Shown piece after piece: positions 41,094 through 60,045 of a stretch of DNA of 64,000 nt (positions within the stretch are counted from its first letter, which is position 1; each line of letters starts with the position of its first letter). Under the pieces are notes generated by a model. That model did no database searches. It saw only the letters and a program-made list of their open reading frames with translations, and was not told the DNA's origin. Both the position numbers and the translations under genes were made by a program. Origin of the DNA: Paenalkalicoccus suaedae (lineage in GTDB: Bacteria; Bacillota; Bacilli; Bacillales; Salisediminibacteriaceae); NCBI RefSeq assembly GCF_006965545.2, contig NZ_CP041372.2, positions 3,348,001 to 3,412,000 on the forward strand, in the 5' to 3' direction.

Positions 41094-44000
41094 TTACTGA
41101 AGTAAACGATGCAACATGAGCGTAAGCTCCAGACGCGTTAGCGTCGCATCTGGTGCAAACGTCGTTTCTGTTGCACCGATCGTGATTTCTTCTCCGTACA
41201 AAATACCAATCTCCTCTTCAAACTGATGACCCGCGATGTCTGTGAAAGGCACAGACGGTGCCGACTCACTCAGTCCAAAACCACGAACAAGAATAGCCGC
41301 AGCCTCCCCACGTGTTAACCCATTAGAAGGAAGGAAACGCTGATGCTCATCCCCTAAAAAGACATCCGCATCCGCTAGAGCAGCAAGCTCAGACGCATAC
41401 TTGAAGTCATCCGCAATATCAGAGAACGGTACCTCCACATTTTCGTCCAAAGCAAGCTCTAACTGACGAGCCAGCAGCAAGCCAGCCTCCAGACGCGTCA
41501 CATCTTGGTACGGACGGAACGTGCCATTCGGATAGCCCTGAAGCACACCAGCCTGCACAAGATCGCGCATCTCGCCGTAGTAGCGCTCAGTCGAATCGTA
41601 GTCGCTAAACGACGGTGCCGCCTCGCCCGCCGGCCAGTCAAACGCATCCGTACGCACAATCACAAATGTGAGTGGATCAATCGTGATGTCCGTAGCCGTA
41701 AGCTCAAACCCATTCTCTTGGCTAACCGCGTTTACGCCCGCTTCATCTGCGTCCGCAATAACATCGCCACCTGTAAGATCAACAGGCAAAGAGAGCGTGC
41801 GCGCATCACTGTCGGCATTGATAAAGACATGGTACGCCTCCGAACCACTAGAATCAACCGCGCGGTAGCCGATCACAAGATCCTCGTCCTGGATCTCTGG
41901 TGCATCAATCATCATCACGTTCTCGTCGATATCGTCCATCGTCGCGTGACGGAACGCATCGGTTGAGCGACGAAGCTCGATCATACCGGCTGTCATCTCA
42001 CGAGTAAGTCCGTTAATTGGGTTAGCTTCTGCATTTGTTGCTTTGTCCCAATCGAATTTGTTAACGGCGTCCGAGGAATCATACGAGTCGTGAATAAAGT
42101 ATGGATACTCAAATGGATTGCCGTCTTCATCTGTCATAAATGTTGATTTGTAAGGCTCCATTCCTTCCGCAACTGGTCCTTGGAAGTCTGGATGACGGAA
42201 CTGCTTGGTGCGTCCAAATTCCTGACCTGCATGCAAGAAGGCTGTTCCTTGAGACGTTAACACCATCGCGTTCCCTAATCGGATACGCTGATGGATCTCT
42301 TCTTGGTGATCCTTTGGATCCTTTTGAATCGATTGTGCAATGACATCGTGTAGCGTTAAGTTATCATGTGCTGCGATGTATGGCACGACGTCTCCTGGAT
42401 TTGTTGCTGTAAAGTTGTCTGGATTTGCTGTTACGTTGTTGTAAATGCGTTCAATACTACGAGCGCCACCTGTAATAAAGCGTGGCTCGCCTTCACTACC
42501 GAAGCCTGATTTTAGTTCGTTACGGAAATCGTCTGAGAAGGATCCGACGCTTTCTGTATCCTGCATCCACTGCTGGTCTGCTGGTTGCACGTCTGGGTAG
42601 TTTTCATCCCCAACGTACGTGACCCAGCCTTCGCCAATCATGACGATGTTTGGATTTGCTGCTTTTGCTGTGTCATACGCAATTTGAATCGACTCTGCAT
42701 CATGATCGCCCATCATGTCAAAACGGAAGCCGTCGACTTTATATTCTTCGACCCAATGCATAATGGAGTCTACTAAAATACGTCGTGACATCTCGTGTGT
42801 CGTACCTAATCGTCCACCACCAAAGCTGATGCGTGACGTGCCATCTGCGTCCATAAAGTGGTAGTAGTTTGGCTCTAAATCTTCGAAAATATGTTCACGA
42901 GCTGTGTGGTTATAGACTACGTCTAAGATGACGCCCATCCCACGTTCATGAATCTCATCAATTAATTGCTTAAACTCTTCAATCCGCTTTTCCGCATCAT
43001 CAGGATCTGTTGTGTACATTCCTGATAGGGAGAAATAGCTGTGTGGGTCATAGCCCCAGTTATAGTTTGTCTGCGTTGATGCATACTCGAGCATGCGCTC
43101 ACGTGCGTTGTACTCATCTGCGAAGAAATAGCTCATCACAGGTAGAAGCTGCACGTGCGTCACACCGAGGTCCTCGATATAATCTAGGCGCTCTGCGAAC
43201 GCGTTGAACGTGCCGAACTCGCTCTCAAGCTCATCCTCAATTGATGGATCTGATGTGAAATCGCGAACGTGCAGCTCATAAATAATCGCGTCCTCCCGCT
43301 TCTCAAATCCGTCAATCTCTGCAAAATCAAGCTCTGGTCCGATTGAAGAGATATCGACGATTGCTGCTTTCCCAACGTGCTCATCGCCATTCACACTATC
43401 CCACGTCGCCATCGATGGCGCATATGGATCAAGTCCTTCGACAATCTCGCCATCGCGCTCAATCATGTAGTGGTAGTAATAGCCAGTGTGATCCGCAACG
43501 TCAGTCGTTGCCGCTGTAAGCGTCGTTTCCCACACGCCTCGATCGGAGCGCGTCATCTCGACGTCTTCTGCGACGATATCGTACTGATCGTCTTTATTGT
43601 AAAGCGTCACAGTAACATTGTCCGCGCTCGGTGACCATAGCTTTAACGTCGCGGTACCGTCTGCGTGTAGCTCTGGTCCAAGCTCTCCATCATAGCTAAA
43701 TAGCTCATCCTTTAAACGCCAGCCGACAAGTGCTTGAACGGTGCGTCCATTATATTCAATCGTAAATGGCGCTGCGTCAAGGTCAAAGCCACCGTAAAGC
43801 GTGACCGCTGAATCGCTGTCGATCGTGACATTTGTTAACGCGACCTCATTCCCTTCGCGATCCGTTACCGTAATTTCTTCTTGGAGCGTCTCCGCGTCTA
43901 GCGAATCCGTGCCGGTAAAGCTTACTTCGATCTTTTCCGTCGAGAGAACTTCTGCATGACTCATGCCTTCGAGCGACGCAAAGTATGGATTGTTGTAAGC

Positions 44001-44750
44001 CATATCCTCTGTGTCACGTGTGAAAATTTGGTTGGAGTTTTGTAGCTCCGAGAAGCTCATATCCCCTGACTGATCGCCTGTTGCTTTGTTTAGAAATAGG
44101 AAGTTGATTTCTTCCGCATCCTCTTGTAGTTCAATATCTACGTACGCACCATATCGACCTACTTCTTCAAAATCAGTCGCTCCATCTGGCCATCCATTAA
44201 CATCTTCAGACGGTGTCGCCACGTCTCCCCAGCTCCACACTGCCCAATTATCGTAGTTGGCATCCTCACGGCTATAGTGAATTCGTACGGTATTATCGTC
44301 TAACTCTACTGGTTCTGCCAGCGTGTATGTACCATCTGCACTCATCCAAATTTCGTTCATTTCCGGGGAAATAATGTTGACTGCGACATCACCCGTCAAA
44401 TTATCGCCTCGATTATTGTTGACGAGCATATCAAGTCGCTCTGCGCCATCGGCTAGTTCAATGTCATAATACGGTCCAAAGGATGTCATCCGATCAGTAG
44501 AGAATCGCGCCTCCCCTGGCCAATCAAATAGCTGATCCGTTGGCGTCTTCGCGCCATTCCAATACCAAACGCCAAGCGTCGATACCGTCGTATCTCCTGC
44601 ATCGTAGTGGACGCGTAAATGTCCGTCCTCCGGTGCCTCCGTGTCCTGCGTGTTCACGTCACTTTGTCCAATTGCCGCCGCTGGGAACAAACTAAGCCCC
44701 ATGACTCCGGCTAGAAACATCGACGAACGCCTCTTCCAAGTAGATTTCAT
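41094..44750 (-). CDS. Cell-surface type I pullulanase with SLH anchor
   Basis: 1218 residues. Signal peptide (about 1-28), two CBM41-like modules (near 46 and 152), an N-terminal beta domain, and a GH13 type I pullulanase domain with YNWGYDP. Candidate catalytic residues: D678 (DGFRFDMM), E707 (MIGEGW), D796 (AAHDN). Three SLH-type repeats close the protein (about 1040-1218). It debranches alpha-1,6 links in pullulan and starch at the wall. Residue for residue it parallels the second half of the amylopullulanase at 1-6282, so one arose from the other by duplication or domain gain. The upstream region carries a GCTT repeat and two operator-like sites. Confidence 0.94.
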   Translation of the reverse strand: MKSTWKRRSSMFLAGVMGLSLFPAAAIGQSDVNTQDTEAPEDGHLRVHYDAGDTTVSTLGVWYWNGAKTPTDQLFDWPGEARFSTDRMTSFGPYYDIELADGAERLDMLVNNNRGDNLTGDVAVNIISPEMNEIWMSADGTYTLAEPVELDDNTVRIHYSREDANYDNWAVWSWGDVATPSEDVNGWPDGATDFEEVGRYGAYVDIELQEDAEEINFLFLNKATGDQSGDMSFSELQNSNQIFTRDTEDMAYNNPYFASLEGMSHAEVLSTEKIEVSFTGTDSLDAETLQEEITVTDREGNEVALTNVTIDSDSAVTLYGGFDLDAAPFTIEYNGRTVQALVGWRLKDELFSYDGELGPELHADGTATLKLWSPSADNVTVTLYNKDDQYDIVAEDVEMTRSDRGVWETTLTAATTDVADHTGYYYHYMIERDGEIVEGLDPYAPSMATWDSVNGDEHVGKAAIVDISSIGPELDFAEIDGFEKREDAIIYELHVRDFTSDPSIEDELESEFGTFNAFAERLDYIEDLGVTHVQLLPVMSYFFADEYNARERMLEYASTQTNYNWGYDPHSYFSLSGMYTTDPDDAEKRIEEFKQLIDEIHERGMGVILDVVYNHTAREHIFEDLEPNYYHFMDADGTSRISFGGGRLGTTHEMSRRILVDSIMHWVEEYKVDGFRFDMMGDHDAESIQIAYDTAKAANPNIVMIGEGWVTYVGDENYPDVQPADQQWMQDTESVGSFSDDFRNELKSGFGSEGEPRFITGGARSIERIYNNVTANPDNFTATNPGDVVPYIAAHDNLTLHDVIAQSIQKDPKDHQEEIHQRIRLGNAMVLTSQGTAFLHAGQEFGRTKQFRHPDFQGPVAEGMEPYKSTFMTDEDGNPFEYPYFIHDSYDSSDAVNKFDWDKATNAEANPINGLTREMTAGMIELRRSTDAFRHATMDDIDENVMMIDAPEIQDEDLVIGYRAVDSSGSEAYHVFINADSDARTLSLPVDLTGGDVIADADEAGVNAVSQENGFELTATDITIDPLTFVIVRTDAFDWPAGEAAPSFSDYDSTERYYGEMRDLVQAGVLQGYPNGTFRPYQDVTRLEAGLLLARQLELALDENVEVPFSDIADDFKYASELAALADADVFLGDEHQRFLPSNGLTRGEAAAILVRGFGLSESAPSVPFTDIAGHQFEEEIGILYGEEITIGATETTFAPDATLTRLELTLMLHRLLQ

Positions 44751-44782
44751 ACGTATAAACCCTCCCTGTTGTAGTAGTCAGC

Positions 44783-44841
<59 letters not shown>

Positions 44842-44893
44842 TTAATAGGTATAAAAAATGCAATTTGTATGAAGTGCTGATAGAATATTAATA

Positions 44894-44907
44894 TGCAAGC
44901 GCTTTCT
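44894..44907 (-). promoter_or_regulatory. cre-like site, identical to that of the amylopullulanase
   Basis: TGCAAGCGCTTTCT, exactly as at 6707-6720; candidate CcpA site linking both pullulanase genes to carbon status. Confidence 0.5.
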
Positions 44908-44999
44908 TATAGTTAATGGTAAAAGAATACTGATTAGAAAGCAAGAGGTAATTGGTCACTTATGGTATTGGACCTAATGGGAGAAGTTTTTACATAATG

Positions 45000-45790
45000 A
45001 AGATCAAGATCAGACCTTCGGTCCTCCTGCGCTTCCGGCTGCCGCTTTCCTGAGGGGCTTGCTCAACTATTTCTGTCGGCCAAACCAATGGCCAACAGAA
45101 AGGATTTTCGCTGCGCGAAAGGGCCCCTCTAGGAGACGTCAGCCTTCGCTTCGGAGGACCGAAGGGTAACGGTTCTTAAATTCTATTAACCCTTTTTTAA
45201 TTTATTTACTAGGCTAAAGATCGTTGCCTAGCTTTTAAAGATGAAACAGTTCCATTAAATGCTTCGAAGTTCATTTATTTTGCGTACGGTTCATTCTTTC
45301 TTTATACGGTACATAAATCTCGTATACGGTTCATTCTTTTCTCATACGGTTCATTAAATCCAATTGCTCAACTGCCGTGCTATAAAAACCTAAACCTATT
45401 TGGTAAACGCCCCTCTTTTCACCTGCACGTAGAGGTGGCAGACCCGGAGGACATTCGGAGACAATCCATAGGGGGAAGAGGTTTTTGAGATCCCACAGGA
45501 GGCGCTTAGGAGGAGACGACAGTCGACTCCTGCCGACGAGGAAGCTCAAAGACCGGCCCTATGGATGTCGTAGAGTGTCCGCAGGGCTGACAGCTCGGAG
45601 AGCAGTGTGAAACTAGTTGGCACTTCATCAATTTAGCTCGAAGAGCTAATGCTCTTGCACGTAATACTAGTTAGTACTTTATCAATCTAGCCCGAAGGGC
45701 TGCTCTTAAAACTAGTTGGCACTTAAGTAATATAGCTCGGAGAGCTAAGGTAGGTGTATTTGAACTAAACTAGTTGGCACTTAGCAACAC
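45000..45790. repeat. Composite intergenic repeat 6 (tail, A, hairpin, array, B, C)
   Basis: Short tail AAGATCAAGATC, element A 45012-45164, CTAGGCT hairpin 45209-45231, four-unit array with ACGG at 45286, 45306, 45326 and 45346, element B 45431-45599, then three copies of module C (TAGTTGGCACTT with small hairpins AGCTCGGAGAGCT or GCCCGAAGGGC) to about 45785. Confidence 0.85.
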
Positions 45791-45848
45791 AAAAATATGG
45801 TATGCTAAAAGCAGACAAATTTGCACGTTTTTGAAAGGAGTCCGCAAG

Positions 45849-47378
45849 ATGAAAACTCGCATTCTTATTTTACTCGGCGCTGCCATGAGCATGCTCGCAA
45901 CGCCCACACTTGCGAACGAAAACAACGAAACGAATGAAACACCATATATGATCGAGCCCCAGTATGACAGCGTTCAGCCCTTCTATGAGGACGTCGCAGC
46001 CGTTGAATTAAACGGCAACTGGCAGCTCATCGACCGCAACAACCAGATTTTAGCCGAGCTACCATATGACGAGGTCGAGCCGTTTTCTGAAGGGCTTGCT
46101 TTGGTGGAAACCTCATCGGGGTTCGGGTATATAGATACTGCCGGAAATGAGGTCGTACCGCCGACGTTTGAAACAGCGAGTACGTTTTTCCGAGGCCTTG
46201 CGGCTGTTGATGAGGAAGGCGACGGATTGCTTACTTTTATCGACGAAGTCGGCGAGCCGGTGCTGCTGGCGCCAAGCGAAGACGGCGCGGCACTACATCA
46301 GGGGTACAGTCGCGTCTTTTCGAAGGAAGAGTATGATGTATTGAACAGAAGTGGGCAGTTTGCTGCTTTTAATGAGGAGTTTTTTGCGGTTTCTGAAGAA
46401 GAATCATGGGGAGCAATAGACAGAGAAGGCAACGAGCTGATTCCATTTGAGTATGCGATGCTTTACGGCGAGTGGAGCGGATTTGCGGTTGGCTTTGAGG
46501 AGGATGGCGCAGCGGATGTGTTTGTAGAGCGGGAGCTTGTGATGGACGACGTATCGCTAGCGGGGATCCCTCGGAACGGCGTGATTCCGGTGTTTGAGGA
46601 TGATGTGATTGTGGCCTACAACACGGAGGGGCAACGGTTGCTAGAGGTAAATGTGGATGGTCGCTGCGATCAGGTGACGGTAGAGGACGAGGTGATGGTT
46701 GTCTACTGTGGCTCTGAGCAGTGGTTAATTGATGGTTCTGGCGAGCCTGTGCATGATGCGGCTTACGATCGTATTGTGAGTACTGGTGGTGCCTCGACGT
46801 TCCAGCGTGGATTATTAGGCGTTGTGCAAGGCGAGGAGTTTTTACTTGTGAATGCGCAGGGTGAGCTTGTCATGAATGTGACGGAGCTTGAGCCTGAGCT
46901 TGATGCTTCGTATATTATGGAGGTTCGTATCACAGAGGACGGGGCTATTTTTATTGTGGAGCCTAGTCGCGTGTGGATGTATAGTCCTGAATCTGATTCG
47001 GTCGAGCTGCTTCCGTTTATGTCGCTATCTGGCTTCTCGGACGGTGTTTCTGTCGCTTTGGATATGGAGCAGCGGATTGGTCTGATTAACGAGTTTGGCG
47101 AGGTGGTTTTCCCATTCGAGGTGGAGGCTATTGCGCGCTCGAGTGAGGCTACTGCGGCTGATGCGCGTATGCCGTTCTCTGAGGATATCGCGGCTGTGAT
47201 GATCGAGGATCGTTGGGGCTATATCGAGAATCCTCTTTTAGAAACATTGTTGCCGATTGCGGCAACGTCTTCTGAGGAGGGAGCGAAGCGGACGGTGATT
47301 GACGTGGCGTTGCCGCTTTTAGTGTCAGTTGGGCTTATTGTGTTTGTGGCGTGGCGTGTGAATAGGCGGAGACGGTAA
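45849..47378 (+). CDS. WG-repeat protein with signal peptide and C-terminal membrane anchor
   Basis: 509 residues from ATG 45849, with AAAGGAG upstream. Signal peptide (about 1-22), then repeated beta units such as WQLIDRNNQILAELPYDEV, FSEGLALVETSSGFGYIDTA and WGAIDREGNELIPFEY that fit the WG-repeat family (KWR-type propeller-like repeats of unknown role), and one helix near the C-terminus (VALPLLVSVGLIVFVAW) with an Arg-rich end. So it is an extracellular repeat domain tied to the membrane. Strongly acidic. Confidence 0.8.
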   Translation: MKTRILILLGAAMSMLATPTLANENNETNETPYMIEPQYDSVQPFYEDVAAVELNGNWQLIDRNNQILAELPYDEVEPFSEGLALVETSSGFGYIDTAGNEVVPPTFETASTFFRGLAAVDEEGDGLLTFIDEVGEPVLLAPSEDGAALHQGYSRVFSKEEYDVLNRSGQFAAFNEEFFAVSEEESWGAIDREGNELIPFEYAMLYGEWSGFAVGFEEDGAADVFVERELVMDDVSLAGIPRNGVIPVFEDDVIVAYNTEGQRLLEVNVDGRCDQVTVEDEVMVVYCGSEQWLIDGSGEPVHDAAYDRIVSTGGASTFQRGLLGVVQGEEFLLVNAQGELVMNVTELEPELDASYIMEVRITEDGAIFIVEPSRVWMYSPESDSVELLPFMSLSGFSDGVSVALDMEQRIGLINEFGEVVFPFEVEAIARSSEATAADARMPFSEDIAAVMIEDRWGYIENPLLETLLPIAATSSEEGAKRTVIDVALPLLVSVGLIVFVAWRVNRRRR

Positions 47379-47387
47379 AGTGATTAG

Positions 47388-48300
47388 GGATTAAGGTCAA
47401 GTGCGGAACCTCCGGTTCCCCTTCGCGGCGTTTGCTACTATCTGTGGTTGCTTACTCAACTATTTTGTCCGGCCAAACCAATGGCCGGTCAAAAGGATTT
47501 TCGTTGCGCGGAAGGGCTACCACGGATCGTTACGCAAACGCCGCTTCGGGTCACCTGCGGTAACGGTCATATAAGTGAGGTTAGCTCTCCCCCATTTGTT
47601 TGATGACGGACGAGGCGTGAGGGCGTGCCTCGCTTTTTTTAATTGAAAAATCATGGTGAATAAGACCATAGATTTGCTGTTAAATCAGTAATGCGGATGA
47701 ATCTGTTTGAAATGCACACTGTGTAACCTCAAATGCACATCTTCATCATGTAAATGCACGTCCACAGGTGTGAAATGCACGCGTTCATAATTAATGCATA
47801 CCTACGAAGCTGAAATGCATACCACGATACCTTAATTGCACGTCTACACCGTGTAAATGCACGTACACGGGTCAGGAATGCACACGCTCATAATTAATGG
47901 CATACCTACAAAGGTGAAATGCACACCACGACACCTTAATTGCACGTCTACACCATGTAAATGCACGCCCATGAGTAAGAAATGCACACGCTCCTATTTA
48001 GTGCATGTCATCAGGCACTTTTGCTTTTACAGCAAGCACTTCGGCAACTTATCCCTTTATTAAAGCCTTTTCGACCTAGTGTCTACACTTCCCCAATCGA
48101 ACAAAACAACTTTCCTTTCCAACCTACAAAGAAGCTACCTCCAAAGATTCGATGGAGGTTTTGACCATGCTCTTGATCTTGACCTTATCCTTCCCCATAA
48201 AAAAAGGTTGCCAATCACCTCAACCACCGTAACCGCAGGGGCGCCGGAGGTGACCGCACTTGACCTTGATCTTGACCTCCCCCACCACAAAGCCAACCGC
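47388..48300. repeat. Composite repeat 7, left flank of ktrAB (0.9-kb direct repeat copy 1)
   Basis: Element A 47404-47563 of a different sequence subtype, basal stem GCGGCGTTTGC with GCAAACGCCGC; terminator-like CGAGGCG hairpin with T run (47610-47640); array of AAATGCAC cores (about 21 bp apart: 47711, 47732, 47753, 47774 and on to about 48000); then a reversed A remnant (about 48225-48265) with tail facing ktrA. Copy 2 is at 50401-51325. Relative to copy 2, about 124 bp of the reversed A are missing here, between G(C/T)AGG short repeats. Confidence 0.85.
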
Positions 48301-48368
48301 CTATTGACACTCCCTCCCAACAGGAGTATGTTCATTTCAGCAACATTATTTGAAATGAGGACCTCAAT

Positions 48369-49061
48369 ATGAAACTTACGATGAAACCAAAAATGAAAAA
48401 CTCCAAAAAGAAACAGTTCGCCGTGATCGGCCTTGGCCGCTTCGGCGGCAGTATCTGCAAAGAGTTGCATGCGCTTGGGCACGAAGTGCTCGCAATCGAT
48501 AAAGAGGAAGAAAAGGTGCAAGAGTTTGCCCCATATTGTACGCACGCCGTGCAGGCGGACAGTACCGACGAAGGCGTACTACGAAACAGTGGGATCAACA
48601 ACTTTGACCACGTCGTTGTGGCAATCGGCGACAATATTCAGGCGAGTATCTTAACCACGCTTGTTCTAAAGGATCTCGGCATTGAGAAAGTATGGGCGAA
48701 GGCCCAGAATGCGTATCACCAAAAGGTGCTTGATAAAATTGGCGCCGACCTTGTTGTGCATCCCGAGTTTGATATGGGGATTCGTATTGCGCACAACATG
48801 TCGTCAGAGAGAATCGTTGACTTCATCGACCTATCCGATGAATACAGTATTATTGAACTGCTTGCTTCTGACAAGTTACATGGGAAGTCTTTAGCCGAGC
48901 TCGATCTTCGAGCCGCTTATAGCATTACCGTTCTAGCGTACCGTAACGAGAAAGGGATGAACATTTCACCAGCACCTGAAGACAAAATTAAAGAAGGTGA
49001 GCTGCTTGTTGTGATGGGTCATAAAAAGGACCTAGCTCGCTTCGAAGAAGAAGGTATGTAG
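48369..49061 (+). CDS. ktrA: KtrA-type potassium uptake regulatory subunit
   Basis: 230 residues. An RCK domain with the nucleotide-binding Rossmann motif (FAVIGLGRFGGSI), DKEEEKVQEF, then the TrkA-C domain (SDEYSIIELLASDKLHGKSL to the end). It forms a cytosolic octameric ring that gates KtrB in response to ATP/ADP, from knowledge of the family. Length and layout match B. subtilis KtrA/KtrC. ATG 48369 follows GAGG. The stop is 1 bp before the ktrB start, so the two are one operon. Whether it is KtrA or KtrC cannot be told. Confidence 0.93.
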   Translation: MKLTMKPKMKNSKKKQFAVIGLGRFGGSICKELHALGHEVLAIDKEEEKVQEFAPYCTHAVQADSTDEGVLRNSGINNFDHVVVAIGDNIQASILTTLVLKDLGIEKVWAKAQNAYHQKVLDKIGADLVVHPEFDMGIRIAHNMSSERIVDFIDLSDEYSIIELLASDKLHGKSLAELDLRAAYSITVLAYRNEKGMNISPAPEDKIKEGELLVVMGHKKDLARFEEEGM

Positions 49062-49062
49062 C

Positions 49063-50391
49063 GTGTACAATATTTTTGCTCGTTTTGATAAGCTCAATCC
49101 ACCCCAGTTTCTCGCCGTCGTATTTGGCTTGGCGATCTTGGTCGGCTCGGTGCTCCTGTGGCTGCCGATCGCGAGCACGGAGCCGGTGCGCTATATCGAC
49201 GCGTTGTTTACGGCGACGTCGGCTACGACTGTGACGGGACTTGTGGTCGTGGACACGGGGACGGTGTTTACGCGCTTCGGGCAGGTGGTGATCATGGCGC
49301 TGATCAAGCTCGGGGGGCTTGGCTTGATGTCGTTTGCGGTGCTGATCGTCCTGGCGCTCGGCAAGAGGCTTGGCTTACGCGAAAGACTCTTGATCCAGCA
49401 GTCGTTCAACCAGCCGTCGCTTGGGGGGATCATTCGGCTCGTGAAGGTGCTGCTCATCTTTTCGTTCTCGATGGAGTTGTTCGCGACGTTTATCTTAGCT
49501 CTACGGTGGGTGCCAGAATATGGGCTCGCAGAAGGGTTGTTCCAGAGCCTCTTCCATGCGATCTCGGCGTTTAATAACGCGGGATTTTCGCTCTGGTCGG
49601 ACAGCCTGACGCGTTATATTGGGGATCCTGTCGTGAATTTGATCATCACGATCCTGTTTATCACAGGTGGTCTCGGATTCACGGTTGTGTACGATCTTGT
49701 TAAAACGAAGCACATGAAGCGGCTCGCGCTTCATTCCAAGATTATGCTCGTCGGCACGCTTGCGATCAACGTCGTGGCGATGCTTATGTTCTTCCTGCTT
49801 GAGCGCGGCAATCCAGCGACACTCGGCGCGCTGACTTGGGGGGAGCAGTTTTGGGCAACGTACTTTCAGGCCGTGACGCCACGTACAGCCGGCTTTAACA
49901 CACTCGACTTCGGCGCGATGGAGCCTGCGACGATTACCTTCATGCTCCTTTTGATGTTCATCGGCGCAGGTAGCGCGTCGACCGGTGGCGGGATCAAGGT
50001 GACCACCTTCGTCGTCATCGTCCTTGCCGTCGTAACCTATCTGCGCGGGGCTCGCGAATCCGTCGCCTTCAGCCGCGCCATCAAAGCCGACATTGTCATC
50101 CGCGCGCTCGCAATCGTCGTCATAAGCTTGAGCGTCGTGTTTGTGAGCATCTTCGTGCTGTCTATGGTGGAAACCGCGCCGTATTTGACCATCGTGTTTG
50201 AAGCGTTCTCTGCTTTTGGGACCGTCGGCCTATCGATGGGCATCACGGATTCCTTAACCGATACAGGCAAAATGGTGTTGATGTGGCTGATGTTTTTAGG
50301 GCGCCTCGGTCCAGTAAGTATTGCATTCGCTCTCGCTAAGGCAAGCCATAAAAACGTGCGCTACCCGAAAGAGGATGTGTTTACGGGGTAG
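49063..50391 (+). CDS. ktrB: KtrB-type potassium channel-like transporter
   Basis: 442 residues, GTG start 49063 with AAGAAGG upstream. Multiple membrane segments with the four selectivity-filter-like segments of the TrkH/KtrB family (for example TSATTVTGL, NNAGFS, PRTAGFN, FGTVGLS). It imports K+ with Na+ coupling as a dimer controlled by KtrA. In an alkali- or salt-adapted cell this is a main osmotic and pH-homeostasis system. No T-rich terminator close behind; the composite repeat hairpin follows. Confidence 0.94.
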   Translation: MYNIFARFDKLNPPQFLAVVFGLAILVGSVLLWLPIASTEPVRYIDALFTATSATTVTGLVVVDTGTVFTRFGQVVIMALIKLGGLGLMSFAVLIVLALGKRLGLRERLLIQQSFNQPSLGGIIRLVKVLLIFSFSMELFATFILALRWVPEYGLAEGLFQSLFHAISAFNNAGFSLWSDSLTRYIGDPVVNLIITILFITGGLGFTVVYDLVKTKHMKRLALHSKIMLVGTLAINVVAMLMFFLLERGNPATLGALTWGEQFWATYFQAVTPRTAGFNTLDFGAMEPATITFMLLLMFIGAGSASTGGGIKVTTFVVIVLAVVTYLRGARESVAFSRAIKADIVIRALAIVVISLSVVFVSIFVLSMVETAPYLTIVFEAFSAFGTVGLSMGITDSLTDTGKMVLMWLMFLGRLGPVSIAFALAKASHKNVRYPKEDVFTG

Positions 50392-50400
50392 GTTGAGAGA

Positions 50401-51325
50401 TTTAGGTCAAGGTCAAGTGACTAAGTTCAAGGTAAAGTGCGGAACCTCCGGTTCCCCTTCGCGGCGTTTGCTACTATCTGTGGTTGCTTACTCAACTATT
50501 TCTGTCGGCCAAACCAATGGCCGACAGAAAGGATTTTCGTTGCGCGGAAGGGCTACCACGGATAGTTACGCAAACGCCGCTTCGGGTCACCTGCGGTAAC
50601 GGTCATATAAGTGAGGCTAACTCTCCCCCTCTATTTGTTTCATTACGAGGCGTTAGAGCATGCCTCGCTTTTTTATTGAAAAATCATGATGAATAAAACC
50701 AAAGATTTGCTGTTAAATCAGTAATGCGGATGAATCGGTTTAAAATGCACACTATGTAACCTCAAATGCACATCTTCATCATGGAAATGCACGCCTACGG
50801 TTGCGGAATGCACGCGTTCATAATTAATGCATATCTGCGAAGGTGAAATGCACACCACGCTACCTTAAATGCACGTCTACACCATAGAAATGGACGCCCA
50901 CGGGTCAAGAATGCACACGCTCCTATTTAGTGCATGTCATCAGGCACTTTTGCTTTTACAGCAAGCACTTCGGCAACTCATCTCTTTACTAAAGCCTTCT
51001 CAACCTGAAGTCACCTCTTCCCCAAACGAACAAAACAACTTTCCTTTCCAACTTACAAAGATGCTAGCTTCAGAGATTTAGTTGAGGTTTTGACCTTGCT
51101 CTTGACCTCCCCCAATAAAAAGAGGGTTGCCAGTCACGTTATCCACCGTAACCGTAGGTGCCCCGTAGCGATGGGGCGGACTCCTAGAGGGGAACTCGCG
51201 TAGGTGAAAATCCTGTTAGACGACCCCTGGGCGGCTGACATAGTTGAACTAGCGCCTCAGGAAAGACGCCCCAGAGCGCAGGGGCACCGGAGGTGACCGC
51301 ACTTGACCTTGACTTCAACCTCCAT
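50401..51325. repeat. Composite repeat 8, right flank of ktrAB (0.9-kb direct repeat copy 2)
   Basis: Same order as repeat 7. Tail 50403-50435, element A 50441-50597 (apical stem TTTCTGTCGGCCA with TGGCCGACAGAAA perfect), hairpin CGAGGCG with T run (50645-50675), AAATGCAC array starting at 50743, 50764, 50785 and 50806, then a complete reversed A (51148-51293) whose subtype equals the one at 6371-6524. The reversed tail faces the - strand gene at 51382. The flanks of both arrays share about 60 bp of sequence starting near AAATCATG. Confidence 0.85.
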
Positions 51326-51331
51326 AAAACC

Positions 51332-51368
51332 AAAAAAATCCACGTGCGCAAGGAGCACACGTGGCTTT
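51332..51368 (-). terminator. Terminator of the wall-anchored repeat protein
   Basis: Minus strand GCCACGTGTGC, loop, GCGCACGTGG, then a T run. Confidence 0.85.
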
Positions 51369-51381
51369 TCTACTATTATAC

Positions 51382-52740
51382 TTATTGTTCTTTACGAGTA
51401 CGCGTGATCATGATTGTACCAGCTGCTGCTAGTAGTAGTCCTAGTGCGATCCAAGCGTATGGTAGTGTTTGCGAGCCACCTAAACCAGTACGAGGCATTT
51501 CTTCTGGCATTTCAGCACCAGTGAATAGCTCAGGGAACTGGTCAACGATTGCTGCTGATAGTGCTTCAGCTGGCATTGTCATGTGTGCATAAGCTTCGCG
51601 GATGTTTGTGTACGCTGTTTCGTAGTCGCCTTCCACATAAGCATCAAATGCTGTAACAAGCTGACCAACGTGCGCTGTTAAGCCTTCTTCTAATGCTTCA
51701 GCTGGGACGCGACCTTCTGTTGCTGCGTCTAGGAATGCTGCTTGCTCAACGATATACTCGTCAAGGTCTGCTAGCGCTTGCTCTTGTCCTGCTTCATCAT
51801 CTCCACCAGTTGCAACTACATAATCAACAAAGTAGCCGATGTGAGAGTTCCAAATATCAAGGAATGCATCTCCAGCTTCGTCGCCGTAGACAGATGCTAC
51901 TGCAGCCGTTAAGTCGTCAGAGTTCGCAAATAGTGCGCCTGCTGATGCATCAAAGCTGTCCGCTCCGTCGATTCCATCCTGCATTGCCATAGCTGCTAAG
52001 CCTGCATGCTCGGTGAAAATGTAGTTTAAGTCTGCACGGAGATCAACCGCTGGTGTGTCAGGGTTTGTCCCTTCAAACACGTCTGGGAATTGATCAGCAA
52101 TTGCTACAGAAAGCTGTTCTGCGAACATGCTCATGTGGTGAATTGCTTCTCTTTCTCCTGTATAAGCCGTTTCAAAGTCACCGGCTACGTATGCATCAAA
52201 CACTTCTAAAAGGTCATCGATGTGCATCATTAACCCTTCTTCAAGTGCCGGCTGTGGTAAACGGTCTTCTGTAGCAGTTGCAAAGAACGCTGCCTGTTCA
52301 ACCTTGTACTCTTCTAACTCTGCTAATGCTTGGTCGATACCTTCTTGGTTACCTTCACCAGTAGCTACTACATAATCAACGAAGTACGTAATGTGAGAAT
52401 TCCAGATTTCAAGGAATGCCGCTCCATTTTCCTCCCCATAGACTGAAGATACTGCCGCAGCGATATCATCGGAGTTTGCGAGTAATGCGCCAGCCGCTTG
52501 ATCAAAATCTGCTGCGCCGTCAGCGCCTTTGCGCATGGCTTCGATCGCGAGGAATGCGTGCTCTGTGAGCGCCGTATCAAGTGTGATACGTAGCTCAGCT
52601 GCAGGCGTCGAAACGCTCGACTCTATCGCCCCGCCGTGGTCCCCAGAATCAGTGGAATGATCGTGCGCTAGTGCCGCTGTTGGCATAAGTAATGAAATTC
52701 CTAACAGTACTGCAATCGGACTTTTCTTAGACATTTTCAT
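51382..52740 (-). CDS. Duplicated helical surface protein with sortase-type anchor
   Basis: 452 residues. Signal peptide (about 1-25, His-rich HDHSTDSGDHGG after it), then two tandem copies of a helical domain of about 185 residues (first from TPAAELRITLDTALTEHAFL, second from TPAVDLRADLNYIFTEHAGL; both contain IWNSHIxYFVDYVVATG). The C-terminus has MPRTG followed by a membrane helix (LPYAWIALGLLLAAAGTIM) and ITRTRKEQ, a sortase signal with Met in place of the first Leu. His and acidic residues in the repeats might bind metal; this is inference. ATG 52740 follows AAGGGGAG. Confidence 0.8.
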   Translation of the reverse strand: MKMSKKSPIAVLLGISLLMPTAALAHDHSTDSGDHGGAIESSVSTPAAELRITLDTALTEHAFLAIEAMRKGADGAADFDQAAGALLANSDDIAAAVSSVYGEENGAAFLEIWNSHITYFVDYVVATGEGNQEGIDQALAELEEYKVEQAAFFATATEDRLPQPALEEGLMMHIDDLLEVFDAYVAGDFETAYTGEREAIHHMSMFAEQLSVAIADQFPDVFEGTNPDTPAVDLRADLNYIFTEHAGLAAMAMQDGIDGADSFDASAGALFANSDDLTAAVASVYGDEAGDAFLDIWNSHIGYFVDYVVATGGDDEAGQEQALADLDEYIVEQAAFLDAATEGRVPAEALEEGLTAHVGQLVTAFDAYVEGDYETAYTNIREAYAHMTMPAEALSAAIVDQFPELFTGAEMPEEMPRTGLGGSQTLPYAWIALGLLLAAAGTIMITRTRKEQ

Positions 52741-52911
52741 GTGTAAATCTCCCCTTTTAGGTTAATTAATTGCTTGGTCTTACCCTAGATAACGTTACGA
52801 TCATGAAAGCGGATCACTTTTTTGTAGAAATAAATATTATTTTGTGAAAGTTGAGTTTTTTGGAGGGTGGTCGAGGGGCAATGTGGTGGGGGTTTTGGAG
52901 TAGGAGCTTCG

Positions 52912-53130
52912 ATTATCCGTAAAGATAGCGTCATTTATCCGGATTCTCGCTTTCATTATCCGAAAACTGGCCTTCATTATCCGGATTCGCCCTTCCATTA
53001 TCCGAAAACTGGCCTTCATTATCCGGGTTCGCCCTTTCATTATCCGAAAACTGGCCTTCATTATCCGGATTCGCCCTTCCATTATCCGAAAACGTGGCGT
53101 CATTATCCGGATTCGCCCTTCCATTATCCA
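52912..53130 (+). repeat. ATTATCCG array, 11 units, 21-bp period
   Basis: Cores at 52912, 52933, 52955, 52976, 52997, 53018, 53039, 53060, 53081, 53102 and 53123; only one step is 22. Spacers alternate GAAAACTGGCCTTC and GGATTCGCCCTTCC. It occupies the divergent promoter region between the wall-anchored protein gene (start 52740) and lytS (start 53223). Confidence 0.95.
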
Positions 53131-53222
53131 AAAACCCAGTGACTCCACCACCTTGATCTTCCCACCTCCGTTCGCTATGATAAAAACACAAGTAAACGCT
53201 ATCAAAAAGGAGGCGAGGCCCC

Positions 53223-54980
53223 ATGTGGATGCTGTTGTTGACGATGATTGAGCGTGTTGGGATTATTGTAACGATTGTATTCGTGCTGACGCGACTACCG
53301 TTTTTTCGCGAGATGATGGATCGCCACGAGCTTGATCGTAGGCAACGTTTTACCGCGATCGTGTTTTTTGGATGCTTCGGCATCATCGGCACCTACACCG
53401 GGCTTAGCCTCAGTACGGAAAGCCTCGAGTTTAATCGTTGGGCTTCCGGACTAGCGTCTGATGAGGCGATTGCCAACTCGCGCGTGATTGGTGTCGTGAT
53501 AGCGGGGTTACTCGGGGGCTACAAGGTAGGCCTCGGTGCAGGTCTGATTGCCGGCGTGCACCGGTTTACGCTCGGAGGTTTCACTGGATTCTCGTGTGGA
53601 CTCGCGACGATTATTGCTGGACTTTTCGCTGGTTATTTCTATAAAAAGAAGAAGTTAGTGAGTGTCAAAACGGCGCTCCTTGTTGGGATGATCGCGGAGG
53701 CAATGCAGATGGCAATTATCATTGCTGTCGCGCGCCCGCTTGAGAGCGCGATTGCTCTCGTGCAGATGATCGGCGTGCCGATGATTATCGCCAACGGGCT
53801 CGGTTGCGCGCTCGTTCTCCTCATTATAAAGAGCGTCGCCAACGAGCAGGATCGTGTCGGAGCCCTTCAGGCACAGAAAACGTTGCGGATTGCTGATCAG
53901 ACGTTGCCGTACTTACGCAATGGGCTTGACCGTGTGTCGGCGGCAGCCGTCGCACAGATCATTCACCGTGAGATTAATGCGAGTGCCGTCTCGTTGACAA
54001 ACCGTACCGAAATATTAGCGCACAGTGGACTCGGTGCCGATCATCATTTACCTGGGAGTGACATTCAGACGCAGTCGACGAAAAACGTGATCGCAAAAGG
54101 CGAATTAGCCCTCATAGAGAAAGAGTCGATCTCCTGCAGAGAAGCGAGCTGCCCACTAGAAGCCGTGATTATTGCGCCTCTCACGCAGCGAGGGGGCACG
54201 ATTGGCACACTTAAATTCTATTTTCGCACGGAAAAAGATATAACGGGTGTGATCACGGAGCTGATTCGCGGGCTCAGTCTGATGATGAGCACGCAGCTGG
54301 AGATTGCAGATGCAGATAAGGCGCGCAAGCTTGCGCAGGAGGCGGAGATTAAGGCATTGCAGACGCAAATTAGTCCGCATTTTATGTTTAATACGTTGAA
54401 TACGATTAGTTCGTTGATTCGGATCAAGCCGGCGCTCGCACGGAAGACGTTGATTTCGTTGTCACACTATTTGCGTCAAAATATGTCTGCGGCGACTGCG
54501 CGGACGACGACGCTTGAGCAGGAGCTTCGGCACGTGCAGGCATACTTGTCCATAGAAGAGACGCGGTTTGACGGTCGGCTGGAGGTGCTCTACGAGATTG
54601 ATCCGGCGGCTAACCTGACGCTTCTGCCTCCCCTCTCCCTTCAGCCACTTGTAGAAAATGCGATTAAGCATGGATTTAAAGAGCGTGATGCGAACTGTGT
54701 GATCCGCGTGATGGTGTGGCGCGTTGGGCAGGAGGTCTCGATTCACGTTGCGGATAATGGAACGGGTATGGATTCCGAACGCCTCGCACAAATTGGCTCG
54801 CGTTTAGTAGAGTCGGATTCGGGAGCTGGTCTTGCTTTATATAACGTGAATCGTCGGTTGACGATGATGTTTGGGGAGACAGCTTCGTTGCAGATTAAAA
54901 GTGAGAAAGGCCAGGGCACGGAGATTGCATTTACAGTGCCTGCCGAGGAAGGAGAGCTTGCGCATGAGCACGTCTATTAA
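53223..54980 (+). CDS. lytS: LytS-type sensor histidine kinase
   Basis: 585 residues. An N-terminal membrane domain of the 5TM-LYT type (about 1-175), a GAF-like domain (about 220-350), and a histidine kinase domain of the LytS class with SPHFMFNTLN (phospho-acceptor H386), then an ATP-binding NGTGMD motif. It should sense a small ligand or membrane state. In B. subtilis and E. coli homologous systems respond to pyruvate. AAAGGAGG precedes ATG 53223. It overlaps the next gene by 17 nt, so both are co-translated. Confidence 0.92.
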   Translation: MWMLLLTMIERVGIIVTIVFVLTRLPFFREMMDRHELDRRQRFTAIVFFGCFGIIGTYTGLSLSTESLEFNRWASGLASDEAIANSRVIGVVIAGLLGGYKVGLGAGLIAGVHRFTLGGFTGFSCGLATIIAGLFAGYFYKKKKLVSVKTALLVGMIAEAMQMAIIIAVARPLESAIALVQMIGVPMIIANGLGCALVLLIIKSVANEQDRVGALQAQKTLRIADQTLPYLRNGLDRVSAAAVAQIIHREINASAVSLTNRTEILAHSGLGADHHLPGSDIQTQSTKNVIAKGELALIEKESISCREASCPLEAVIIAPLTQRGGTIGTLKFYFRTEKDITGVITELIRGLSLMMSTQLEIADADKARKLAQEAEIKALQTQISPHFMFNTLNTISSLIRIKPALARKTLISLSHYLRQNMSAATARTTTLEQELRHVQAYLSIEETRFDGRLEVLYEIDPAANLTLLPPLSLQPLVENAIKHGFKERDANCVIRVMVWRVGQEVSIHVADNGTGMDSERLAQIGSRLVESDSGAGLALYNVNRRLTMMFGETASLQIKSEKGQGTEIAFTVPAEEGELAHEHVY

Positions 54981-55728
54981 AGCACTCGTTGTTGACGATG
55001 AGCGCTATAGTCGCGAGGAACTACAACATTTATTAAAGGTACATCCCGTGATTGAGGTGATTGGTGAGGCGGACACTGGTGAATCTGCGCTCATGCAGGC
55101 GCTTCAGCTAACGCCAGACGTCGTGTTTTTAGACGTGGAGATGCCGCGTATGAATGGCCTAGATGCCGCTCGTTCGTTGCGTGAGCTTAAAAAGGTGCCA
55201 CACATCGTCTTTACGACGGCGTATCCGGACTTTGCCGTCGAGGCGTTTCGTCACAACGCGCTTGACTATATCTTGAAGCCGTACGAAGAGGATGCGATTG
55301 CTGAGACGGTGCGTCGGATTACGGTGGCTTTTGGTGTGCAGGAGGCTTCGCCTGAGAGTGAGCTGATTGGAGCCCGCGCCTCTGTTACTCCCGGCGCGCC
55401 CGGTCGTCTCTCGATCGAGTCCGACGGCGAGATCATTTTCCTCGATCCCCGAGAGATTCTTTACCTCTTCCGGGATGAAAAAAGGACGAAGCTTGTCACC
55501 ACAAGCGGCGACTATGAAGCAAAGGCTCCGTTAAAGGAGTTTGAGGAGCGGTTAGCTTCCTTTCATTTCTTCCGTATTCATAAAGGTTATTTGGTGAATC
55601 TGGATTTCGTATCACGGCTGTCGCCTTGGTTTAATGGGGCGTACCAGCTGGAGCTTGTTGGTCGGGAGGAGCAGTTGGCGGTGAGTCGGAATTATGTGAA
55701 GGGCCTTAGGGCTGCGCTGTCGCTTTAG
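54964..55728 (+). CDS. lytT: LytR/AlgR-type response regulator (LytT)
   Basis: 254 residues from ATG 54964 (GGAGAG upstream), inside the last codons of lytS. Receiver domain with DDE near residues 11-13, phospho-acceptor D57 (FLDVEMPRMNG) and KP motif (ILKPYEED), followed by a LytTR DNA-binding domain (ILYLFRDEKRTKLVTT, FFRIHKGYLVNLDFV). Together with LytS it is a two-component pair; the next gene downstream on the strand is a CstA-family transporter and is the likely target. Confidence 0.92.
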   Translation: MSTSIKALVVDDERYSREELQHLLKVHPVIEVIGEADTGESALMQALQLTPDVVFLDVEMPRMNGLDAARSLRELKKVPHIVFTTAYPDFAVEAFRHNALDYILKPYEEDAIAETVRRITVAFGVQEASPESELIGARASVTPGAPGRLSIESDGEIIFLDPREILYLFRDEKRTKLVTTSGDYEAKAPLKEFEERLASFHFFRIHKGYLVNLDFVSRLSPWFNGAYQLELVGREEQLAVSRNYVKGLRAALSL

Positions 55729-55734
55729 TTTATC

Positions 55735-56735
55735 AAGTGCTAACTAGTTTTAAGAGCAGCCCTTCGGGCTTTATTGCTAAAGTGCCAACTAGTTTAAATC
55801 AGCTCTTCGAGCTAATAATTTTATAAGAGGAGTCAGCTCTGCGAACGCCCTACGACATTAGCAGGGTCAGTGCCTGAGCCTACTCGTCAGGCAGGAGTCG
55901 ACGACCGTCTCCTCCTAATCGCCCTTCTGCGTGGTCTCATTCCCTGCCTATTCCTGCTAATTGTCTCCGAGCATTCTCCGAGTCTGCCTCCTCTAGAGCT
56001 TCTTTAAAGGGAAGACTGAAACACTTAAATCAAACTTACCTACAATAATAGATTACTAGGCGCAAGTTCATTGCCTAGCTTTTTGCTATTGAAATCGTGT
56101 TGATACCTGGTTTATGGTTCATTCATGTTGATTACGGTTCATAAATTCTATATTACTAAAGAGACACTTATCAAAAACCTGAAAAACTTGTTAAGAAAAA
56201 CTTTCTTTCCCAAAAAAGGATGCTCTTTTAAATCAATCGTAGAGCTGTCAGCCCTCCAGACACTCTCGGCATAGGGTCCGTAAGCTTGCGTTTGATTTAA
56301 AGAGTGCATTAGAAAAGAGTCTTCCTTTTATTTGGAACGGCTTTTTTTCGTGTGATTTGTGGGTTAAGATAAGTGGCTCTCTAGCAAATCGATGTTTATG
56401 TACCGTATAAGAGCTTTAAGTACCATGCTGAACGTTTATGTACTGTATAGAAGCTTTATGTACCGTAAGCAGAATTTGCTCATTGTAAATGAGCGTAAAA
56501 GCTTTTCCTAAGCTAGGCAACGCCTTTGCGCCTTGTAATTTTTTTATTAAAAATTACAACTGTTACCCTCCGGTCCTCCGGAGCGAAGGCTGGCGTCTCC
56601 TAGAGGAGCACTTCCGCGCACCGAAAATCCTTTCAGACGGCCACTGGACGACTGAAATAGTTGAGGCAGCACCTCAGGAAAGTGCCAGCCGGGAGCGCAG
56701 GAGGACCGGAGGTCTTGCACCTCAACCTGCAAAAA
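55735..56735. repeat. Composite intergenic repeat 9, reversed, nested
   Basis: Reversed C modules (55735-55830), reversed element B (55830-56002), CTAGGCG hairpin (56056-56078), short array remnant (about 56100-56150), partial reversed B (56239-56282), reversed array with GTACCGTA cores at 56401, 56421, 56441 and 56461, reversed small hairpin (56512-56537), and reversed element A (56577-56712) facing the CstA gene. Two layers appear to be nested. It separates lytST from its probable target gene. Confidence 0.75.
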
Positions 56736-56841
56736 TGGCATGTCAGCCTCCATATTAGGCGTGTTGGCCCGATTTTCTCACAAAAAGAGCCTGAGCCGTC
56801 ATAATGAATGTAAACGCATACATTATGAGGAGGTCAGGCAC

Positions 56842-58296
56842 ATGATTACGTTTATGGTTGGGGTTGCCTTGCTAATTGTTGGGTATTTTACGTACGGGAA
56901 GTTTGTGGAGCGCGTGTTTGGTGTGAAGGATGCGCGTCCGACGCCTGCTTATGTGAATCAGGATGGGGTCGACTATGTTCCGATGAATACGAGGAAGAAC
57001 TCGTTGATTCAGCTACTGAATATTGCGGGGACGGGGCCTGTATTTGGTCCGATTCTCGGTGCGCTTTATGGTCCGGTGGCGTTTATTTGGATCGTTGTTG
57101 GGTGTATTTTTGCCGGTGCTGTGCACGATTATCTCACTGGGATGATTTCGATTCGTAATAAGGGTGCTCACCTGCCCGCTTTAGCGAGTAAGTTTTTAGG
57201 TGGGGCGATGAAGCACGTGGTTAACGCGTTTGCGATTCTTCTGTTGCTTCTTGTTGGTACGGTTTTTGTATCGACGCCTGCAAGTCTGATTCACCTGCTT
57301 ATTGATGGTCGTGTCGCAATTGGATTTATTTTAGCTGCTATTTTTATCTACTATATTTTTGCGACGCTCATGCCTGTTGATAAGATTATCGGTCGTTTTT
57401 ATCCGTACTTCGGTGCGATTCTCCTGCTGAGCTCAGCGGGTGTTGGGGCGATGCTTCTCTTTACTGGGGCGCCGATTCCAGAGCTTACGCTATCTAATTT
57501 ACATCCTGATAATGCACCTGTTTTACCGCTTCTCTTCTTTACCATTACATGCGGGGCTTTGTCTGGATTCCATGCGACGCAAACACCTATTATCTCTCGC
57601 ACAACAAAAGCGGAGCCGCAGGGTCGCAAGATTTTCTATGGCATGATGATTGCAGAGGGTATTATTGCGATGATCTGGGCCGCAGCGGCGATGAGCCTGT
57701 TTAACGGGCCGGTCGGACTCAATGAGATCCTTGCTGCCGGTGGACCGGGCGCAGTTGTAACCGAGGTATCGACGCTCTTACTTGGCTCAGTGGCTGGTAC
57801 GCTTGCCGTGATCGGGGTTATCGTGCTGCCGATTACTTCCGGCGACACGGCGTTCCGAAGCGCTCGAATGATCATTGCCGAGTACTTCTCAATTGCACAG
57901 AAAAAAGTGTCGAGCCGTCTATGGATCGCGCTACCGCTGTTTGCAATCTCTGTTGTGTTTACGCAAATCGACTTTAACCTATTGTGGAGATACTTCAGCT
58001 GGGCGAACCAGGCGACCGCTGTGATCGCACTCTTCGTTGGGGCAATGTATCTGTACATTGCGAGGAAAAACTATTTTATCGCGCTGATACCAGGAGCCTT
58101 CATGCTCGTCATGGTTATCACCTACATTTTAAATGCACAAATTGGATTTGGTTTATCGTGGCCAGTTGCGTGGACAGGCGGAATCATTGGAGCAACAGTG
58201 CTCGTTGTGATGTTCTTCCGTCAAGGTAATAAACAACGAGAGCGTAATCTACCGCTCGAGGTCGACGTGTCCGATTACGAGGAGAAGGCGTCGTAG
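56842..58296 (+). CDS. cstA: CstA-family carbon starvation / pyruvate or peptide transporter
   Basis: 484 residues from ATG 56842 (GAGGAGGT upstream). Polytopic membrane protein with the family motifs TPAYVNQDGVDYVPMNT, GTGPVFGPI and SGFHATQTPIIS. Shorter than E. coli CstA, similar to the compact Firmicutes type. E. coli relatives (CstA, BtsT) import pyruvate and peptides; BtsT is controlled by the BtsS/BtsR pair of the LytS/LytT class, which matches the order here. So pyruvate uptake is the best guess. Confidence 0.9.
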   Translation: MITFMVGVALLIVGYFTYGKFVERVFGVKDARPTPAYVNQDGVDYVPMNTRKNSLIQLLNIAGTGPVFGPILGALYGPVAFIWIVVGCIFAGAVHDYLTGMISIRNKGAHLPALASKFLGGAMKHVVNAFAILLLLLVGTVFVSTPASLIHLLIDGRVAIGFILAAIFIYYIFATLMPVDKIIGRFYPYFGAILLLSSAGVGAMLLFTGAPIPELTLSNLHPDNAPVLPLLFFTITCGALSGFHATQTPIISRTTKAEPQGRKIFYGMMIAEGIIAMIWAAAAMSLFNGPVGLNEILAAGGPGAVVTEVSTLLLGSVAGTLAVIGVIVLPITSGDTAFRSARMIIAEYFSIAQKKVSSRLWIALPLFAISVVFTQIDFNLLWRYFSWANQATAVIALFVGAMYLYIARKNYFIALIPGAFMLVMVITYILNAQIGFGLSWPVAWTGGIIGATVLVVMFFRQGNKQRERNLPLEVDVSDYEEKAS

Positions 58297-58303
58297 GGGG
58301 CGG

Positions 58304-58360
58304 TTAACCGGAAATGGGGCTTCGATTATCCGAATTCGCAGCTCCATTATCCAGAAACTC
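58304..58360 (+). repeat. Short array, mixed ATTAACCG and ATTATCCG cores
   Basis: Three 21-bp units at 58304 (GTTAACCG), 58325 (ATTATCCG) and 58346 (ATTATCCA). The following sequence CAGAAACTCTAC ... CAGCACGGCACTTGATTCAC is nearly the same as after the array at 61742-62001, so the arrays have a conserved right end. Confidence 0.85.
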
Positions 58361-58436
58361 TACCGCTCTTCCAGCACGGCACTTGATTCACATGCTCTTC
58401 TTTCTCAAATTGCCATAGCGCCACTTTATGAAAAAC

Positions 58437-58472
58437 AAAAAGCCAGGTGTGCTCTGCACACTTGGCTTTTTA
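58437..58472. terminator. Bidirectional terminator between cstA and doc
   Basis: AAAAAGCCAGGTGTGC, loop, GCACACTTGGCTTTTT, A and T runs on both sides. Confidence 0.9.
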
Positions 58473-58859
58473 TTTGGTGGAACAGTGTGATTCGATATTT
58501 TGTGCAATCTCATGAAAGGTGAATTTGTGATTGACGATGTCGACGATAAAGTCCTCGGCCTGTTGCTGATCCATGTCAAAGGTGAGACCGTTATAGGATA
58601 AAAATTGAAGCATTGCTACGAGTGCTGTGCGTTTATTAGCATTCTCGAAGACATGATTTTTAGACAATGAATCGACGAGTGCCGCTGCTTTACTAAAGAT
58701 CGTCGGATAGGCTGGCTCCCCAAAAGCAGACTGCTTCATCCGATTCAACGCCGAGTCTAGAAGCTCTGGATACCTGACACCTACCGGCTCGCCCGGGCTA
58801 TAGCGCTCAATAACGAGCATATTTATTGCAATGACTTCTTCTTCGGTGAGAAACCTCAT
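58470..58859 (-). CDS. doc: Doc-family toxin (Fic fold)
   Basis: 129 residues. The Fic-type motif HVFENANKRTA matches the Doc form HxFx(D/N)(A/G)NKR. Phage P1 Doc phosphorylates EF-Tu and stops translation; this protein is likely a toxin of a two-gene module. Its ATG overlaps the antitoxin stop codon (TAATG), so both are translated together. Length is typical of the family. Confidence 0.92.
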   Translation of the reverse strand: MRFLTEEEVIAINMLVIERYSPGEPVGVRYPELLDSALNRMKQSAFGEPAYPTIFSKAAALVDSLSKNHVFENANKRTALVAMLQFLSYNGLTFDMDQQQAEDFIVDIVNHKFTFHEIAQNIESHCSTK

Positions 58860-59101: not shown

Positions 59102-59142
59102 GTTGAAATCCTCCTTTTTATTTATGATATGTGTTTTATTAT

Positions 59143-59162
59143 ATAATTGTTATAACAATTAT
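59143..59162. promoter_or_regulatory. Perfect 20-bp palindrome, probable antitoxin operator
   Basis: ATAATTGTTATAACAATTAT is its own reverse complement and lies about 40 bp upstream of the antitoxin start, over an AT-rich promoter. Confidence 0.6.
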
Positions 59163-60021: not shown

Positions 60022-60045
60022 GCACACAAAGGAGGACGAGCCCGC

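Follow-up and report, generated by a model that had tools for sequence, protein, structure and literature searches.

Direct repeats flanking ktrAB

The window, a stretch of 64,000 nucleotides (nt) from the Paenalkalicoccus suaedae chromosome (C3, 3,969,553 bp), carries the potassium uptake genes ktrA and ktrB flanked by two direct repeats, R1 on the left and R2 on the right (Table 1; positions are those of the window unless prefixed). Both repeats are composites of the same modules in the same order and on the same strand, namely a branched hairpin that we call A, a terminator-like hairpin, a tandem array, a tail and a reversed A, and they are spaced 2.1 kb apart. The original prediction had placed ktrA-ktrB between direct repeats of about 0.9 kb sharing long identical stretches, and had named low identity of the two copies as the outcome that would speak against it. 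Both repeats were located, and global alignment gave 715 identical positions in 783 ungapped columns (91.3%). The longest uninterrupted matches span 69, 67 and 52 nt, and the alignment has two large indels, one of 104 nt and one of 124 nt. In a genome search with the 601-nt middle of R1, R2 was the sole long high-identity match, so the likeness of the two is far beyond chance; the 17 further places matched were pieces of 66-91% identity, mostly array. The tail and the rest of the middle module have two long copies genome-wide, those in R1 and R2. Except for one frame overlapping ktrA, no open reading frame (ORF) of at least 120 amino acids lies inside either repeat, and no transposase gene was found within or between them, only ktrA and ktrB lying in between.

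The hairpin with a T run was found in both repeats as predicted, and the reversed A at the right end is intact in R2 and reduced to a scar in R1. The 124 bp said to be missing from R1 are indeed absent, the gap being bounded by CGTAGG and CGCAGG. Short CCTNCG repeats flank the A hairpin on both sides, so the loss looks like slippage across a hairpin, one of the two routes proposed (slippage or excision); a search with the scar pattern gave five matches, two of them scars and three intact copies, and the second scar adjoins an intact A. The 104 bp absent from the R2 array equal the size of one 103/104-bp higher-order unit. Sister arrays without A occur in other intergenic places (L082-L086), where a unit comprises five words of about 20.6 nt when read by eye. 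The prediction had also regarded the GCGGCGTTTGC-like subtype of A as rare, which holds inside the window but not for the genome, where it is common and forms the main type (27 of the 48 copies first collected, 18 of these 27 with GTTTGC at the first stem).

Structure and position of the A element

A model of A built from 27 copies was used to score copies in the genome. At least 94 were found once opposite-strand shadows had been removed (28 of 122 rows were dropped as overlapping and lower-scoring); as 150 of 933 first-look candidates were scored, 94 is a lower bound. Structure was evaluated on 47 copies, retained at a stricter cut-off from 52 matches that included five opposite-strand shadows, a set outside which the reversed A of R2 (51157-51284) falls. 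A is a branched hairpin of about 170 nt with five helices and a three-way junction, and its secondary structure is conserved: pairing was kept in 90.5% of cells compared to 79.5% in shuffles, and two-sided changes were present in 33 of 48 pairs. Two-sided changes occurred in 219 cells (shuffles gave 59, and sliding the structure gave no more than 47), covariation was 0.298 (0.108 in shuffles, no more than 0.076 when slid), and none of 500 shuffles reached any of the five structure measures.

Many copies are extragenic, with 64 of 94 starting within 130 nt of the end of the upstream ORF. The nearest long upstream ORF within this distance was on the same strand in 50 copies and on the opposite strand in 14 (7 and 3 in a mirror control); A preferentially lies 16-130 nt past a same-strand stop codon. 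In 60 of 94 copies the next 160 nt contain a hairpin with a T run (8 of 94 in a reversed-sequence control), and AAGNTC-type hexamers precede A in 57 copies, compared to 17 on the other side. Since A tends to lie just past stop codons, with a T-run hairpin coming after it, the best-supported reading is that it forms the structured 3' end of messenger RNAs (mRNAs), probably as a 3'-end hairpin of the ERIC/REP/bcr kind. Given the position and fold observed, A would be transcribed as part of the message, where it would most likely shield the mRNA or assist termination.

Copies of A are unevenly distributed on the chromosome. The region C3 971,981-2,552,445, which surrounds the expected terminus (dnaA is at C3:339) and makes up 39.8% of the chromosome, contained none, all 94 lying outside it (P about 3e-19 if placement were uniform).

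Relatives of A and known repeat families

Relatives of A occur in two other genera. The model matched in three of 299 genomes of the order (the genome itself, G005 and G179) and in two of 35 genomes of the family (the genome itself and G005), the exact core pattern was present in two of 397 genomes (again the genome itself and G005), and a DNA search with the A of R2 matched its own genome only among 40. Matches in G005 and G179 were weak by the model (35-38 bits). In linear alignments scored against dinucleotide shuffles, an A of the window's second subtype at about 36.0 kb gave z values of 8.3-9.3 with these relatives and another near 45.0 kb 5.0-7.6, compared to 0.0, 1.1 and 4.8 for the R2 subtype. 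On the upstream side of the core, seven copies in G179 have exactly 132-134 nt in common, beyond which their similarity ends, the pattern of a mobile repeat; 39 matching places of all sizes were recorded. Relatives of A from another family lie in an insertion sequence (IS)-like repeat with 12 places at which 213 nt or more were matched.

A was not recognised as a known Rfam RNA: positions 44000-64000 gave only two sub-threshold matches at E values up to 1, and neither R2 alone nor 44990-45780 alone gave anything near a gathering score. One relative in G179 (L161:538-639, equal to G179:C32:194837-194938) matches part of tsr24 of S. aureus (RF02577) on the opposite strand with 32.1 bits (E 4e-5), below the gathering score of 50, and neither the A of R2 nor the other A subtype of the window matched tsr24. 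Spread by sequenced phages, plasmids or viral contigs was rejected as a candidate after searches of plasmids and phages with R2, of plasmids with the intergenic region 44751-45773, and of viral contigs with the A core pattern gave no match; the pattern of the G179-type relative was found in one viral contig, and its DNA gave weak matches on two plasmids. A literature search returned nothing on A by sequence, on tsr24 or on intergenic repeats of alkaliphilic Bacillus, and for ktrAB together with direct repeats it gave only a paper about genomic islands of Vibrio.

REP/BIME, RIB, ERIC and NEMIS are extragenic palindromes at the ends of transcription units and have been proposed to stabilise mRNA. 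A resembles them in being palindromic, extragenic and at the ends of transcription units; its sequence is not known to be related to theirs, and it is longer than REP and has a three-way junction and a hypervariable paired tag. With both a conserved fold and many extragenic copies, A is an intergenic stem-loop repeat family in the broad ERIC/REP/bcr sense. Some of these palindromes are among those named in PMC2267715. Bcr1 of the B. cereus group is similar to A in size (167 bp in Table 3 of PMC2267715), in its tens of intergenic copies, in its conserved fold and in its Bacillaceae-type host. However, the passages on bcr in PMC6542083 tie its mobility to a TTTAT motif, and only six of the 94 copies of A are flanked at both ends by TTTAT at a distance of up to 70 nt, so that A does not share the end motif of bcr1; bcr1 is also said to be restricted to the B. 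cereus group. Bhal-1 of Bacillus halodurans is likewise an intergenic stem-loop repeat of an alkaliphilic Bacillus but, by its description in PMC2267715, is 74 bp long with 36 copies, and is compared here by description only.

Origin of the arrangement

The explanation that we favour, with a probability of roughly 60%, is that R1 and R2 are copies of a single intergenic mosaic, which came to lie on either side of ktrAB by duplication or was made uniform there by gene conversion, with A acting as a 3'-end hairpin. R2 fits the layout of two other convergent gene pairs (L072 and L091), in which, as in R2, an A lies at each gene end and the two point at each other. R1 shows this layout too, but upstream of ktrA there is no minus-strand gene end for it to serve, and R1 may therefore be the secondary copy. 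The two would then have diverged by slippage in the array (104 bp), deletion between the hairpin flanks (124 bp) and a paired swap in stem P3 of A.

Several observations weigh against this reading. No homologue of either gene flanking ktrAB was found at 29 ktrB loci from relatives (flanks of 1.5-4 kb), so the neighbourhood does not settle which of R1 and R2 is older. As to A itself, 14 of 94 copies follow an opposite-strand ORF, for a further 30 the upstream ORF is further than 130 nt away or none was found, and the ORF caller, which takes the longest open frame, is crude. Over 41 mostly Watson-Crick pairs in the 94 copies, which show 515 two-sided changes, G-U pairs outnumbered A-C mismatches by 144 to 111, a slight excess that falls short of what selection on the transcript alone would be expected to produce. 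A strong strand preference was rejected as proof of RNA function on these counts and on those from the mostly Watson-Crick pairs of the 47 copies (46:43); the ratio of 80:20 over all pairs of the first 27 copies came mostly from a small number of columns in which G-U is the usual pair. With strand evidence for selection on RNA this weak, the arms may match for a reason that acts on DNA.

If R1 and R2 recombined through RecA, ktrAB could be deleted or duplicated, and if this happened regularly the pair would be a hot spot, cells with zero, one or more copies of the operon coexisting. The direct orientation, 2.1-kb spacing and exact runs would suit such exchange, and a second KtrB paralogue might make loss tolerable, but the assembly holds a single ktrAB copy, the other KtrB gene (C3:2534934, the second of two in the genome) is only 32% identical, and the identity of R1 and R2 is interrupted by mismatches as well as the two large indels. 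Exact identity of 50-70 nt feeds RecA-dependent recombination only at a modest rate. Moreover, similar repeat pairs surround many genes here, and the arrangement does not point to a special role. A different composite (A, a TACGGT array and hairpin B) is common to seven other intergenic regions of the window, each 0.8-1.1 kb long, with 77-90% identity over 595-872 aligned columns and exact runs of as much as 86 nt. Many genes near ktrAB are thus enclosed in the same manner; R1 or R2 paired with other regions, their own pairing excluded, gave 73-83%. Regular recombination is on this evidence rather unlikely. Loss or copying of ktrAB by recombination is plausible from the sequence and would not be special to this operon, and the repeat pair around it is best described as a possible hot spot only.

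It is unlikely that ktrAB arrived on a circle or fragment that had one R copy and recombined with a lone R lying between the flanking convergent genes, leaving direct repeats behind. In R2, A and reversed A do have the convergent layout that a spacer between the two outer genes should show, and neither of these stands beside ktrAB in the relatives' loci. However, the flanks compared there were short, no second R-ktrAB locus is known as a source, and KtrB homologues in 39 of 40 genomes (own included), in some only distant paralogues, leave no need for a recent gain. We consider it very unlikely that R moved to a second site by transposition, as a composite mobile unit with inverted A elements at its ends. 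The outer hexamers of A and reversed A do mark the limits of both copies, and relatives of A in another family lie in the IS-like repeat, but the genome holds no other copy of the whole unit, no target-site duplication was identified, and the same boundaries are also expected if each A marks a gene end. As to A itself being a miniature inverted-repeat transposable element (MITE), with terminal inverted repeats and a target-site duplication, A is palindromic overall, and neither an empty site nor a duplication was identified among the genomes searched, in which no second genome of the genus turned up. A transposon or other mobile unit built to carry ktrAB, with R1 and R2 as its ends, was rejected, there being no transposase ORF and no further copy of R in the genome.

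A hypervariable tag in stem P3

The A cores of R1 and R2 differ at nine of 138 positions, and eight of the nine differences form four adjacent pairs of stem P3 (TGTC/GTCA in R1, which holds one T-T mismatch, and CTGT/ACAG in R2). Outside this tag 129 of 130 core positions are identical, making the two the closest pair among the 94 copies, while the tag differs at eight of eight. There were 41 distinct tags among the 94 copies, and column entropy in 27 copies was 1.36 bits in the tag compared to 0.38 elsewhere. A tag that follows the phylogeny of A was rejected, since tag distance did not track distance elsewhere in A (Mantel r 0.02 in 94 copies, 165 of 1000 permutations as high; r 0.03 in 27 copies, 614 of 2000 as high). 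An identical tag was kept in six of the 12 closest pairs, which weighs against pure swapping. We tentatively suggest, while thinking it doubtful, that P3, the apex stem, carries a dedicated paired tag of 4 bp that copies exchange on both arms at once, at a much higher rate than other parts of A change, with R1 and R2 as the clearest case. Either a short gene conversion covering the hairpin tip or a template switch in replication could be responsible; conversion of the tip from another A copy would be the plain explanation of the swap between R1 and R2. If true, the 94-copy family would be a natural recorder of concerted two-arm mutation. Whether stems are kept by template switching in DNA replication or by stepwise selection on RNA is a question raised in PMC8794818, and it can be tested directly with many copies in one genome and with such close pairs as R1 and R2. 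A family of this size, with relatives in other genera, no Rfam match at gathering score, strong two-arm covariation and little excess of G-U over A-C, is of interest beyond the locus.

Neighbouring genes and intergenic architecture

The closest ktrB relatives within the family were 62-71% identical, and relatives by sequence include Halalkalibacter; ktrA stands beside ktrB in 18 of the 29 loci. In one relative, KtrB-like fragments with stop codons (G023:C1:3945989-3946284) suggest a decayed ktrB.

Table 1. Features of the ktrAB locus and word arrays elsewhere in the window.
Feature	Position	Strand	Basis or remark
Upstream ORF, WG-repeat protein	45774-47378		domain search
R1, left direct repeat (composite)	47389-48282	+	global alignment
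A element of R1 (core 47418-47555, P3 tag TGTC/GTCA)	47393-47569	+	begins 16 nt past upstream ORF stop
Terminator-like hairpin with T run, R1	47610-47640	+	sequence
Tandem array of R1, 104-nt unit, AAATGCAC-type words, 2.9 units	47708-48006	+	repeat analysis
Tail module of R1	47987-48179	+	only 2 full copies in genome
Scar of reversed A with flanking hexamers, 124 bp missing	48227-48280	-	alignment and scar pattern search
ktrA, TrkA_N and TrkA_C (Pfam), 230 amino acids	48369-49061	+	ORF and domain search
ktrB, TrkH/KtrB family, 442 amino acids	49063-50391	+	TIGR00933, 387 bits, cut-off 331
R2, right direct repeat (composite)	50395-51325	+	global alignment
A element of R2 (core 50454-50591, P3 tag CTGT/ACAG)	50429-50605	+	39 nt past ktrB stop
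Terminator-like hairpin with T run, R2	50645-50674	+	sequence
Tandem array of R2, 103-nt unit, 1.9 units	50743-50935	+	repeat analysis
Tail module of R2	50916-51110	+	second of 2 full genome copies
Intact reversed A of R2	51156-51312	-	69 nt downstream of convergent ORF 51382-52740
Downstream ORF, convergent, no assigned family	51382-52740
Word arrays (1)	7245-7343, 10083-10235, 11723-12251, 13857-14087, 16088-16167, 18485-18704
Word arrays (2)	22380-22988, 29457-30168, 33809-33925, 52865-53183, 59387-59505, 61652-62096

The larger point is that the intergenic space of this genome is built from gene-end hairpins and arrays. Hairpin repeat B, of about 190 nt (45412-45610 in the window), has 40 scored copies in the genome, often downstream of A in the same orientation, four of them within the A-free region, and had no match in Rfam. 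Intergenic word arrays of differing sequence have periods near 20-21 nt or multiples of it (40, 42 and 103), about two turns of DNA, and the top lags in a table of intergenic self-matches were 21, 42, 103, 84, 63, 20 and 40. Between 31564 and 56739, eight intergenic spaces measure about 1 kb (990, 990, 999, 1010, 1011, 1023, 1025 and 1078 nt), a narrow spread that arises partly because copies of one composite lie in them. Just upstream of a pullulanase gene, a GCTT tetranucleotide repeat of 11.5 perfect copies (44783-44828) is a possible phase-variable promoter.

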